Positions 770 through 4,202 of a DNA stretch of 64,000 nt are shown one piece after another. The DNA lies in the NCBI RefSeq assembly GCF_000742135.1, contig NZ_KN046818.1, positions 2,462,600 through 2,526,599 of the forward strand. The letters are read 5' to 3'. The notes under the pieces are model-generated. The model saw only the letters and a list, made by a program, of their open reading frames with translations, was not told the DNA's origin and searched no databases. Positions within the stretch are counted from its first letter, which is position 1. Every line of letters begins with the position of its first letter. This DNA is from Klebsiella pneumoniae. GTDB lineage: Bacteria > Pseudomonadota > Gammaproteobacteria > Enterobacterales > Enterobacteriaceae. The position numbers and the translations under genes are program-made.

Positions 770-1924
770 TTAGTAAGCTTGTCGCCGCTGATGACAGCCA
801 TAGATGAGCAAGGCGCTCATCGCCAGAAACGACAGCGCGGCGGCGGGGAGCGCCACGCTGTTCCAGCCAAAGCCCTGAGCGATCATCATTCCGCCGCAGA
901 AGGCGCCGATGGCGCTGCCGAGGTTAAAGGCGATCTGTCCCCCGGCCGCCCCCAGCATCTCGCCGCCTTTGGCGTTCTGCAGCAGCAGGATCTGCAGCGG
1001 CGCTGACAGGGCGAATAGTCCCGCGCAGCAGAGAAACGCCAGCGCCAGCGAAGCGACTTTCTGTTCACCGAAGGCAAAGATCAGCAGCAGCGTCACGGCT
1101 ATGACCCCGTCGGTCATGGCCGCAATGCGCAGCGGGCTGTAGCGCCCGGAAATTTTGCCGCTGAACAGATTGCCGACCACCATTCCTAGCCCCGCCAGCA
1201 TCATAATCAGCATCATCTTGCTTTCAGCAAAGCCGGATACATTGAGCATAAAGGGCTTGATATAGCTGAACCAGGCAAACACGCCGGCGTTACCGAACAT
1301 GGTGGCGGCGAAAATCAGCCACGGCGCCGGGGAGGCCAGAAAACGGAACTGCTCGCGCAGCCGCGTGCTGGCCCGGTCATAAAGCGTGGGCACCCAGCAG
1401 AAGATTGCCAGAAATACCGCCACGTTAAATACCGCGATAAGCGCAAAGGTATAGCGCCAGCTGAAGTGATGCCCAAGCCAGGTGCCACCCGGGACGCCCA
1501 CCAGGTTAGCGATCGTCATGCCGCCAATCATCCCCGCCACCGCGGCGGTCACCTTCCCCGGCGGCGCGATTTTCGACAGGATAATCGCGCCGACGCCAAA
1601 AAACGCCCCGTGGGGAAACCCGGAAACCAGCCGGCCAAGCGCCAGCATGGCGTAGCTACTGGAGAAGGTAAACAGGGTATTGCCGAGAATACACAGGCCA
1701 GCCAGGAACAGCATCACCGATTTCAGGGAAAACCGGCTGGAGAGCAGCGCCATGATCGGCGCGCCGATCACCACGCCGAAGGCATACCAGGCAATCATAT
1801 TGCCGGCGGCGGGAATGGATATTCCGACATCGTGCGCCATATCCGGCAGCACGCCCATAATGCCAAACTCCGCCATGCCAAGTCCAAAGGTGCCCAGCGC
1901 CAGTGAAAAGATTGTTTTTTTCAT
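770..1924 (-). CDS. araJ: AraJ, MFS sugar efflux-type transporter
   Basis: This 384-residue, highly hydrophobic protein has the length and twelve-helix pattern of a major facilitator. It closely matches remembered E. coli AraJ: the N-terminus MKKTIFSLALGTFGLGMAEF, the segment GRLVSGFPHGAFFGVGAI, and LLLQNAKGGEMLGAAGGQIA near the end. AraJ belongs to the arabinose regulon in E. coli and is assigned to the DHA1 drug/sugar efflux group; its true substrate is not established. It sits in the inner membrane. The stop is 6 bp from the end of the convergent CMD gene. No ara genes lie next to it here, and I did not find a convincing AraC site upstream. Confidence 0.9.
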   Translation of the reverse strand: MKKTIFSLALGTFGLGMAEFGIMGVLPDMAHDVGISIPAAGNMIAWYAFGVVIGAPIMALLSSRFSLKSVMLFLAGLCILGNTLFTFSSSYAMLALGRLVSGFPHGAFFGVGAIILSKIAPPGKVTAAVAGMIGGMTIANLVGVPGGTWLGHHFSWRYTFALIAVFNVAVFLAIFCWVPTLYDRASTRLREQFRFLASPAPWLIFAATMFGNAGVFAWFSYIKPFMLNVSGFAESKMMLIMMLAGLGMVVGNLFSGKISGRYSPLRIAAMTDGVIAVTLLLIFAFGEQKVASLALAFLCCAGLFALSAPLQILLLQNAKGGEMLGAAGGQIAFNLGSAIGAFCGGMMIAQGFGWNSVALPAAALSFLAMSALLIYGCHQRRQAY

Positions 1925-2126
1925 ACATCTTATAGGGGTATTGAGAGCCGGCCGGCATTATTTACCATCCCGCCCCGACACACCAGCTAAAAACGCCCGA
2001 CGGCAGTTTCCTCCATACAACAGCCTGATTCGTTCATGTTCCCCAGCCGCGTGGCATACCGGCGGCGTGCTTTCGCAGTAACAATCCCCTATCAAAATCA
2101 GTGAGCTCAAAGAGATAAACACCTCA

Positions 2127-2157
2127 TTGATCTCAAGTTAACTTGAGGTTGTAAAGT
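2127..2157 (+). promoter_or_regulatory. MerR/SoxR-type promoter with 19-bp spacer
   Basis: A -35 hexamer TTGATC (2127-2132) and a -10 hexamer TAAAGT (2152-2157) are separated by 19 bp. The spacer region holds the perfect 16-bp palindrome CTCAAGTTAACTTGAG (2132-2147). An overlong 19-bp spacer with a centred dyad is the hallmark of promoters activated by MerR-family proteins through DNA distortion, and this dyad matches the SoxR box I recall from the soxS promoter. It lies 31 bp before the start of the VOC gene, so redox-responsive expression of that gene is the inference. SoxR as the actual protein is likely but not proven. Confidence 0.7.
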
Positions 2158-2188
2158 CAAAACATCGTTCACCTTGGGAGAATTATCC

Positions 2189-2629
2189 ATGCAAAGTGTT
2201 GATGTCGGTTTTACTCATGTCGCCTTTACCGTCCGCTGTCTGGCCAGCAGCATCGATTTTTATACCCGCTATACCGCGATGACCGTCATTCACCAGCGCG
2301 AGCCCGACCTCCCCTCGGCGCGGAAAGTGGCATGGCTCAGCGACCGCACCCGGCCTTTCGCCCTGGTGCTGGTGCAAAGTGACGATCCGGCCGATACGCC
2401 GCTGGGACCGTTCGGCCATCTCGGCGTCGCCTGCGCCACCCAGGCCGAGATCGATGAGAAAGTGGCCCTCGCACGGCGGGAAGGTGTTTTACGCCGGGAG
2501 CCGGAGCAGCTGGGCGATCCGGTGGGCTATTTCGCTTTCTTTGCCGACCCGGACGGTAACACCCTGGAGCTGTCGTGGGGGCAGCGGGTGGGACTGGAAG
2601 TCATCCTGGCGGGAAAACCCGGCGAATAG
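2189..2629 (+). CDS. VOC-family (glyoxalase/bleomycin resistance fold) protein
   Basis: A 146-residue protein with two beta-alpha-beta-beta-beta halves typical of the vicinal oxygen chelate fold. Candidate metal ligands are the early His in FTHVAFTV (about residue 10), a second His in FGHLGVAC, and the Glu in DGNTLELSW near the end. ATG 2189 is chosen because GGGAG stands just before it; an upstream TTG at 2174 overlaps that ribosome binding site. The family includes glyoxalases, dioxygenases and thiol transferases, and the substrate cannot be told from sequence. The MerR/SoxR-type promoter immediately upstream suggests a role in redox-cycling or electrophile stress. ppk2 follows 61 bp downstream in the same direction. 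Confidence 0.85.
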   Translation: MQSVDVGFTHVAFTVRCLASSIDFYTRYTAMTVIHQREPDLPSARKVAWLSDRTRPFALVLVQSDDPADTPLGPFGHLGVACATQAEIDEKVALARREGVLRREPEQLGDPVGYFAFFADPDGNTLELSWGQRVGLEVILAGKPGE

Positions 2630-2690
2630 TTTTCCACCGCCTCGCCGGGGGAGGATTACACTTCAAAGGGATACCTCGGCAACACGGAGC

Positions 2691-3515
2691 ATGGCGATGG
2701 GCAACAAGAAAAGCGGTAATCCGGTCGACACGGCGGTAAAAATCGCGCCGCTCGACAACAAAGCGTACGAGAAAGCGCTGCGCAAACTCCACGTTGAGCT
2801 GGTGAAACTGCAGCGCTGGGTAATGCACAAAGGACTGAAAGTGTGCATTGTCTTTGAAGGCCGGGACGGCGCCGGGAAAGGCGGCACCATTAAGGCCATC
2901 ACCGAGCGCGTCAGCCCGCGTATCTTTCGGGTCGTCGCCTTACCCTCGCCCACCGAGCGCGAAAAAAGCCAGCTCTACTTTCAGCGCTATATCAAGCATC
3001 TCCCGGCGGCCGGCGAAATCGTGATTTTCGATCGCAGCTGGTATAACCGCGCCGGCGTCGAACGAGTGATGGGCTTTTGTACGCCGGAGGAGGTGCAGAA
3101 GTTCCTCGACGGCGCGCCGATGGTGGAGCGCGGCATGGTCGAATCGGGCATTATTCTGCTCAAGTACTGGCTGGAGGTCTCTCCGCAGGAGCAGGAGCGC
3201 CGTCTGCGGGATCGCATCGACGACGGGCGTAAAATCTGGAAGCTCTCGCCGATGGACATTAAGTCTTTCAACCGCTGGGATGAATATACCGCTGCCCGCG
3301 ACGCCATGTTCGCCGCCACCGATACCGCCTGGGCGCCGTGGTTCGTCGCCCGCTCGGAGGATAAAAAGCGCGTGCGTCTGAATATCATCACCCATCTGCT
3401 GTCGCAGATCCCCTATGAAGCTTTACCGGTGGAGCCTGTGACGCTGCCGAAGCGCAAAATTGGCAAAATGAAACAGACTAATTTTCCTTTCCGCTTCATT
3501 CCAGAGAAGTTTTGA
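2691..3515 (+). CDS. ppk2: Polyphosphate kinase 2 (PPK2)
   Basis: A 274-residue cytoplasmic PPK2, which uses inorganic polyphosphate to phosphorylate nucleotides (family knowledge). The single domain carries the Walker A-like GRDGAGKGGTIKAI near residue 60 and the Walker B/lid segment FDRSWYNRAGVERV, both hallmarks of the family. It also shows the conserved YWLEVSPQEQ and MDIKSFNRWDEY blocks. One-domain length fits class I (nucleoside diphosphate-preferring) enzymes, but preference is not provable here. Start: ATG 2691 preceded by CGGAG; ATG 2697 is an alternative two codons in. The frame stays open far upstream but overlaps the VOC gene in another frame and lacks PPK2 similarity there. Confidence 0.9.
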   Translation: MAMGNKKSGNPVDTAVKIAPLDNKAYEKALRKLHVELVKLQRWVMHKGLKVCIVFEGRDGAGKGGTIKAITERVSPRIFRVVALPSPTEREKSQLYFQRYIKHLPAAGEIVIFDRSWYNRAGVERVMGFCTPEEVQKFLDGAPMVERGMVESGIILLKYWLEVSPQEQERRLRDRIDDGRKIWKLSPMDIKSFNRWDEYTAARDAMFAATDTAWAPWFVARSEDKKRVRLNIITHLLSQIPYEALPVEPVTLPKRKIGKMKQTNFPFRFIPEKF

Positions 3516-3547: not shown

Positions 3548-3690
3548 CAGGTTTATTACTATAACCATGAATATTTCAGGCTGTTACTTCCCTCTGGAAG
3601 CTGTCTCGCAAAATAAATATTAAACTTACTGCTGGTATTTATTTTTTAGTGGGTAAAGTAAATAATCACAGAACCAACCGCAAGGAGCCT

Positions 3691-3879
3691 ATGATGAAAA
3701 GTAATACGCTACGTAAAAGACCCACTGACGTACCCGTCCAGAAGGCGTCAGAACAGCCAGGTAAGGATTTACGAGAAGCAGATAAACAGCGACAGCACAA
3801 GGAATTCATTGCCGCAATGAATGAATTTATTGCAAAAGGAGGCACTCTTACTGATGATGAATTTTTCAGGGTGCTATGA
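3691..3879 (+). CDS. CcdA-like antitoxin, lacking a recognisable DNA-binding N-terminus
   Basis: Starting at ATG 3691, with AAGGAG in good position, this gives 62 residues. The C-terminal third (KEFIAAMNEFIAKGGTLTDDEFF) follows the pattern of the CcdA toxin-binding tail: an amphipathic helix, then an acidic stretch. The first 35 residues are polar and show no ribbon-helix-helix repeat, so normal autoregulation may be absent. A GTG at 3649 would extend it to 76 residues, near the usual CcdA length, but without adding an obvious DNA-binding motif. Its TGA overlaps the ATG of the downstream ccdB-like frame (ATGA), the usual antitoxin-toxin coupling. Assignment rests on the tail and the partner. 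Confidence 0.55.
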   Translation: MMKSNTLRKRPTDVPVQKASEQPGKDLREADKQRQHKEFIAAMNEFIAKGGTLTDDEFFRVL

Positions 3880-4202
3880 TGCTTGAATAATTCAATGTTT
3901 ATCGAAATTGTTCTGCTCAGACAAATAAAACCCTGCCATATTATATGATCGTGCAGAATGATTATTATGCAGACCTGGCCACGAGAGTCATTATTCCTTT
4001 AATGCGACCACAACAGTTACCACGCTGGCATCAGCATGCCGTACCAAGGATAAATATAGAATTTGACAGCTTTTTACTTTGTACGCCAATGAGCAGTAAC
4101 TTAAATAATAAACGGATCCCGCCACAGGATTTCGTCTGCAATCTGAGTCATGCGCGCCAGGGCGTTATCGATTCAATCGATACACTTATCACGAACTGCT
4201 GA
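3876..4202 (+). pseudogene. ccdB-like gyrase toxin gene with early nonsense codon
   Basis: The frame opens at ATG 3876 (or 3879), overlapping the antitoxin stop, but reads ATG ATG CTT GAA TAA, with a stop at 3888-3890. Directly after the stop the same frame continues as FNVYRNCSAQTNKTLPYYMI and reaches ATRVIIPLMRP, then LCTPMSS and VCNLSHARQGVIDSIDTL. These match in order the CcdB pattern (Q-F-x-V-Y-R-N, VQSDII, TRVVIPL, MTHEMAS, DLSHHRDEIKNAI). A CAA-to-TAA change would explain it. ATG 3945 could restart an 85-residue fragment, but it has no ribosome binding site. The C-terminus ends ITNC instead of the Trp/Asp-Gly-Ile tip needed by F CcdB to poison gyrase. Likely dead. Confidence 0.7.

Follow-up and report, generated by a model that had tools for sequence, protein, structure and literature searches.

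A putative SoxR-type promoter precedes a VOC-family gene in Klebsiella pneumoniae and related Enterobacteriaceae

The VOC gene, its promoter and its neighbours

The stretch of DNA analysed here, 64,000 nucleotides from Klebsiella pneumoniae (hereafter the window), carries on its forward strand a gene for a 146-aa VOC-fold protein (glyoxalase/bleomycin resistance/dioxygenase superfamily; 2189..2629; Pfam PF00903, E 2e-12), followed on the same strand by a gene for a PPK2-family polyphosphate kinase (2697..3515). The start of the latter is given as annotated in K. pneumoniae 176, and an alternative in-frame ATG lies at 2691; the PPK2 profile scans began at 2694, one codon ahead of the annotated start, and gave an E value of 3.3e-94 with PF03976 and 351.9 bits with TIGR03707 (cut-off 301.8). 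K. pneumoniae 176 encodes an identical VOC protein, annotated 'VOC family protein', in the gene order araJ, VOC, ppk2, two small genes, fdnI.

The VOC gene is adjoined by genes for an alkylhydroperoxidase-domain protein (2-763) and an AraJ-type MFS transporter (770-1924); these two are preceded by a luciferase-like monooxygenase gene in K. pneumoniae 176. Between ppk2 and fdnI (3649-4202) the annotation of K. pneumoniae 176 shows a small gene together with one of the CcdB family, and the pair is perhaps a CcdAB-type toxin-antitoxin system. The open reading frame list of the window gives only an 85-aa frame there (3945-4202).

A 31-bp element (2127-2157, forward strand) lies ahead of the VOC ATG at 2189. 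Its -35 element, TTGATC (2127..2132), overlaps the first two bases of an 18-bp segment, TCTCAAGTTAACTTGAGG (2131..2148), as it does in soxS. This segment is a candidate SoxR box, being equal at 17 of 18 positions to the E. coli SoxR box CCTCAAGTTAACTTGAGG as given in PMC4411124, and inside it lies the perfect 16-bp dyad CTCAAGTTAACTTGAG (2132-2147). Between the -35 element and a -10 element, TAAAGT (2152..2157), lie exactly 19 bp of spacer (2133-2151). GGGAG (2176..2180), read directly from the letters, is a likely Shine-Dalgarno sequence. The sequence-only reading had described a perfect 16-bp dyad between -35 and -10 elements spaced by 19 bp, and the coordinates were confirmed in the window. 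A sigma-70 scan, which permits spacers of 16-18 nt only, did not list the VOC promoter.

PPK2 had also been put forward as a co-regulated partner of the VOC gene, in which case the target would be a VOC-PPK2 operon and the polyphosphate kinase part of a redox response. In the window the two genes share a strand, with 67 bp between the VOC stop and the PPK2 start and no terminator-like site listed in the gap, and PPK2 is downstream of VOC in 6 of the 11 VOC-bearing genomes of the genus Klebsiella. The two genes adjoin each other in all 11, but in the other 5 the box has PPK2 on its upstream side, and no PPK2 Walker motif was seen within about 1.5 kb of VOC in any of 16 genomes of other genera. 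The neighbours elsewhere are unrelated (LysR-, AraC- and GNAT-like frames and others, by eye; EAL, DUF4440 and DUF2254, by annotation). This gene order rules out a conserved VOC-PPK2 unit and leaves little of the proposed partnership, so that an operon-wide redox response is unlikely. The predicted SoxR target is the VOC gene, with read-through into ppk2 possible in K. pneumoniae.

Occurrence of the element in this genome and in related genomes

With up to 3 mismatches allowed, the dyad was found once in the window, and 100 dinucleotide shuffles of the window contained a mean of 0.09 dyads, with at least one dyad in 8 of the 100. The whole genome (5,545,784 bases) has four such places. Two are exact, one in the soxR/soxS intergenic region and the other in the VOC promoter; none has 1-2 mismatches, and the two with 3 mismatches are both on contig C4. 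The soxS promoter of this genome (C1:296206) reads TTTACC-19 bp-TATACT, as against TTGATC and TAAAGT at the VOC gene. In this soxS promoter and in that of E. coli, the identical 16-bp dyad, the 19-bp spacer and the -35/-10 register are those of the VOC promoter. The proposal that the dyad is the SoxR box of soxS, which should then recur at soxS of the same genome, was borne out by this exact copy in the same register.

Among 392 genomes of the family, the exact dyad is present in 148. Only 3 carry it twice (the window's genome, G144 and G266), and in all 3 the second exact copy precedes the VOC orthologue. We also ran on the 392 genomes a pattern, TTGAYCTNAAGNNNNCTTNAG, designed to skip the soxS-type -35 element. 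It matched in 18 genomes, once in each, and the reversed control matched 1. Twelve of the 18 matches precede VOC orthologues (positions compared), and 5 of the remaining 6 adjoin a SoxR- or MerR-type gene. As a background, 12 chosen genomes were searched for the box with up to 3 mismatches of 18, which gave 28 places: 12 exact, 12 at VOC genes and 4 others, these last having 2-3 mismatches and being neither exact (soxS-type) nor VOC sites.

The searches for VOC homologues matched 11 of the 20 genus genomes, 35 of the 392 family genomes and 13 of the 394 order genomes. Their cut-offs differ and their sets overlap, and the matches come from 48 distinct genomes. Upstream DNA was examined in 44 of the 48 (G253, G380, G379 and G173 are outside this set), unreliably so for L078, whose locus has a shorter left part, so that its row was mispositioned; L078 was excluded from the alignment and from both trees. 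The SoxR-type element is present upstream of all 27 orthologues with at least 70% identity from the genome searches, which represent 8 GTDB genera. Kept in 27 of 27 are the TT at the start of the -35 element (TTGA or TTTA), the A before the box, the 19-bp spacing, and TA at the first two positions and T at the sixth of the -10 element. The box ends 40-46 bp ahead of the ATG. Mean column identity in the promoter was 0.87, versus 0.48 and 0.43 in the flanks. As a control, we shuffled the half-site letters to make 300 palindromes and allowed up to 5 mismatches; the shuffled palindromes matched a mean of 0.18 of the 27 upstream regions and the true dyad matched all 27. The largest score among the 300 was 15 of 27, presumably from near-copies of the true half-site.

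That the promoter arose by chance or is a functionless relic is barely credible. Two members of the clade described below do lack an intact box, but the register is conserved in 27 genomes despite diverged flanks. A chance origin was rejected on the dyad count in this genome, the window shuffles, the footprint and the shuffled-palindrome control.

The box varies among its carriers. In G402 (L052:1970-1987) both arms are altered symmetrically, CCTCAGGTTAACCTGAGG, and perfect dyad symmetry is kept. The boxes of G146 and G390 have 4-5 deviating positions and that of K. spallanzanii (L012) has three. The order-wide search added one further carrier, G760. No box was seen at the 17 remaining examined homologues, which have at most 69% identity. 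The distant homologues L102-L105 (35-38% identity, other families of the order) have no box, and blastn of window positions 1900-2700 against the E. coli collection found nothing.

An intact box is also missing at two closer homologues, one with 74% identity in an E. cancerogenus record (L013) and one with 73% in P. dispersa (L132). The plasmid collection has 74 records with a homologue, 12 of which were inspected. Four of the 12 have the box (two of K. pneumoniae and two of Kosakonia); the other eight are Pantoea records without it, among them P. agglomerans and P. dispersa (each at 73% identity). Since the P. agglomerans plasmid homologues have no box, the box is not universal even at 73% identity. 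A 50-protein tree groups the 30 box carriers, without exception, in one clade of 32 rows with support of 97/100. L013 and P. dispersa are the two members without an intact box, and the tree places its other Pantoea homologues outside the clade. L141, whose frame read gave 10 residues, was left out of the second tree. One gain and two losses of the box would fit this tree, and other histories are possible. The promoter accompanies the VOC gene, and in the two Kosakonia records, L133 and L134, the gene and its SoxR-type promoter are on plasmids typed as conjugative.

The regulator and direct control by SoxR

Searches of the window's genome with PF00376 and PF13411 gave seven MerR-type proteins. 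The four-cysteine [2Fe-2S] cluster motif, CIGCGCLSRRDC, is present in one of the seven, the protein at C1:296047 beside soxS, and the other six are without the SoxR recognition helix (by eye). We take these six to resemble CueR, ZntR, two MlrA-like proteins, one MerR with a long effector domain and one plasmid partition protein. The sequence features of a SoxR promoter were found together here: a dyad close to CCTCAAGTTAACTTGAGG, a 19-bp spacer in the soxS register, and a SoxR with the cysteine motif.

A regulator of the MerR family other than SoxR, with a SoxR-like recognition helix, might use the site. Two genomes of genus g103 (L111:1501-1521 and L112:1501-1521), both among the matches of the TTGAYCTNAAGNNNNCTTNAG scan, have a SoxR-box-like promoter, TTGACCTCAAGTGAACTTCAGG, near-identical to the VOC site, and there it adjoins a divergent MerR-type gene without the four-cysteine Fe-S motif. 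The regulator acting on this operator perhaps has a different sensor, so an operator of this kind is not necessarily one for an Fe-S SoxR. In the window's genome, however, only SoxR among the seven MerR-type proteins has the SoxR recognition helix, and the chance that another regulator acts at the VOC promoter appears slim.

The VOC gene is thus very probably activated directly by oxidised SoxR. We infer from the sequences that SoxR would bind and activate the VOC promoter, and what its inducers would be. The 31-bp element would be a MerR-type promoter whose -35 and -10 elements are spaced too widely and whose dyad, lying between them, would hold a SoxR dimer; redox-cycling compounds would oxidise the SoxR [2Fe-2S] cluster, and the spacer would be untwisted to allow VOC transcription. 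In Klebsiella and its relatives the VOC gene would then be a second direct SoxR output beside soxS. The sequence-only reading had suggested that a SoxR-type promoter at the VOC gene extends the regulon, a suggestion now strongly supported by the soxS promoter of this genome, which serves as a control, and by the footprint in 27 genomes of 8 genera.

The VOC protein and a possible effector arm of SoxR

The VOC protein belongs to the VOC superfamily by its PF00903 profile and by its paired beta-alpha-beta-beta-beta fold. The AlphaFold model has a mean pLDDT of 87 and matches VOC chains with Z scores that reach 14.9. Its fold relatives include GloA-type, Fos, TnmS, ChaP and EhpR proteins, with TnmS1 as the top Foldseek match. 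Since Z is about 12-15 for all of them, the fold does not single out any one relative, and with scores this close together it does not decide the role of the protein.

His10, His77 and Glu127 do not vary among 32 aligned sequences and correspond to His5, His74 and Glu122 of GloA; the residue aligned to GloA Glu56 is Val60, which is likewise invariant in the 32. We take the metal ligands of GloA to be His5, Glu56, His74 and Glu122 (E. coli GloA numbering). The invariance of His10, His77 and Glu127 suggests a metal site and, together with Val60, indicates that the VOC protein is probably a two-His-one-Glu metal protein and not a glyoxalase I. Glyoxalase I and FosA/FosB share the VOC fold and align at the His, His and Glu positions. 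A glyoxalase I, with a link to methylglyoxal, would agree with the nearest solved sequences, which are lactoylglutathione lyases, and with the GloA-like structures among the top fold matches (Z about 14). The equivalog scores, however, are far under the glyoxalase cut-offs (27 vs 120 and 24.2 vs 165 bits) and Val60 takes the place of one presumed ligand; we rejected this assignment as very unlikely. A FosA/FosB thiol transferase was also rejected, the scores of 16-23 bits being far under equivalog cut-offs of 180-280.

The protein could instead bind drugs without catalysis, in the manner of EhpR or TnmS, which share the VOC fold. TnmS1 leads the Foldseek matches and EhpR is listed as well (Z 12.7, 14% identity); in structural alignments EhpR and TnmS proteins have 14-23% identity to the VOC protein. 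According to PMC3175449, EhpR binds a phenazine; TnmS proteins bind an antibiotic. PMC3175449 also describes EhpR as without the catalytic residues of its relatives, whereas the VOC protein keeps its invariant His10, His77 and Glu127, and we consider a purely binding role rather unlikely. The prospect is close to even, if slightly below it, that the VOC protein binds or modifies redox-active aromatics such as phenazines and quinones, probably via a metal held by His10, His77 and Glu127. We arrive at phenazines and quinones by combining the metal site with the fact that the presumed regulator senses redox-cycling compounds; the substrate is a guess from fold and regulation.

PMC4146615 describes soxS as what seems to be the only gene that SoxR targets directly in enterics, and PMC4411124 likewise gives a single-target statement for soxS. 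Among the matches listed from open-licence PMC texts there was no report of a VOC gene as a SoxR target, and the main text of PMC8262902 (K. pneumoniae paraquat RNA-seq) makes no mention of VOC, glyoxalase, dioxygenase or ppk. Outside the enterics, SoxR targets are transporters or small-molecule-modifying enzymes (PMC4146615). The mfsA promoter of S. maltophilia has TTGACC, 19 bp and a SoxR box (PMC4411124), and the S. coelicolor SoxR regulon, like mfsA and the VOC gene, has the box between -35 and -10. The VOC element differs from the soxS promoter in that it drives an effector-like gene, not a regulator, and does not adjoin soxR. With its mfsA-like layout and effector-like target, the VOC element has the logic of non-enteric effector promoters inside a soxS-bearing genome. 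S. maltophilia and S. coelicolor, according to PMC4411124 and PMC4146615, are without soxS, whereas Klebsiella would have a direct effector beside it.

We tentatively propose that in Klebsiella, Kosakonia and several other genera SoxR has a SoxS-independent direct effector arm, in which the VOC protein destroys or sequesters the compounds that oxidise SoxR, such as phenazines and quinones. If so, a single step would link toxin sensing to toxin removal, which is also the case in SoxR regulons outside the enterics, and a VOC family so far uncharacterised would join the first-line response to redox-cycling compounds. A conserved second direct SoxR target in K. pneumoniae and its relatives would alter the soxS-only picture. 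Such an arm may be relevant where Klebsiella meets phenazine-producing Pseudomonas.

The TTGAYCTNAAGNNNNCTTNAG scan also matched at sites other than VOC genes in genera g82 and g12 (L118, L121, L122 and L123), with SoxR-like genes beside 3 of the 4. In L118 and L123 the match is divergent from a SoxR-like gene. In L121 and L122 it precedes a methyltransferase gene, followed in L122 by a SoxR-like gene; no SoxR-like gene was seen in L121 within the stretch examined. By eye, the SoxR-box promoters of g82 and g12 precede genes for an RND membrane-fusion-like protein, a methyltransferase or a DoxX-like protein, and these sites appear to be non-soxS targets of SoxR type within the GTDB family.
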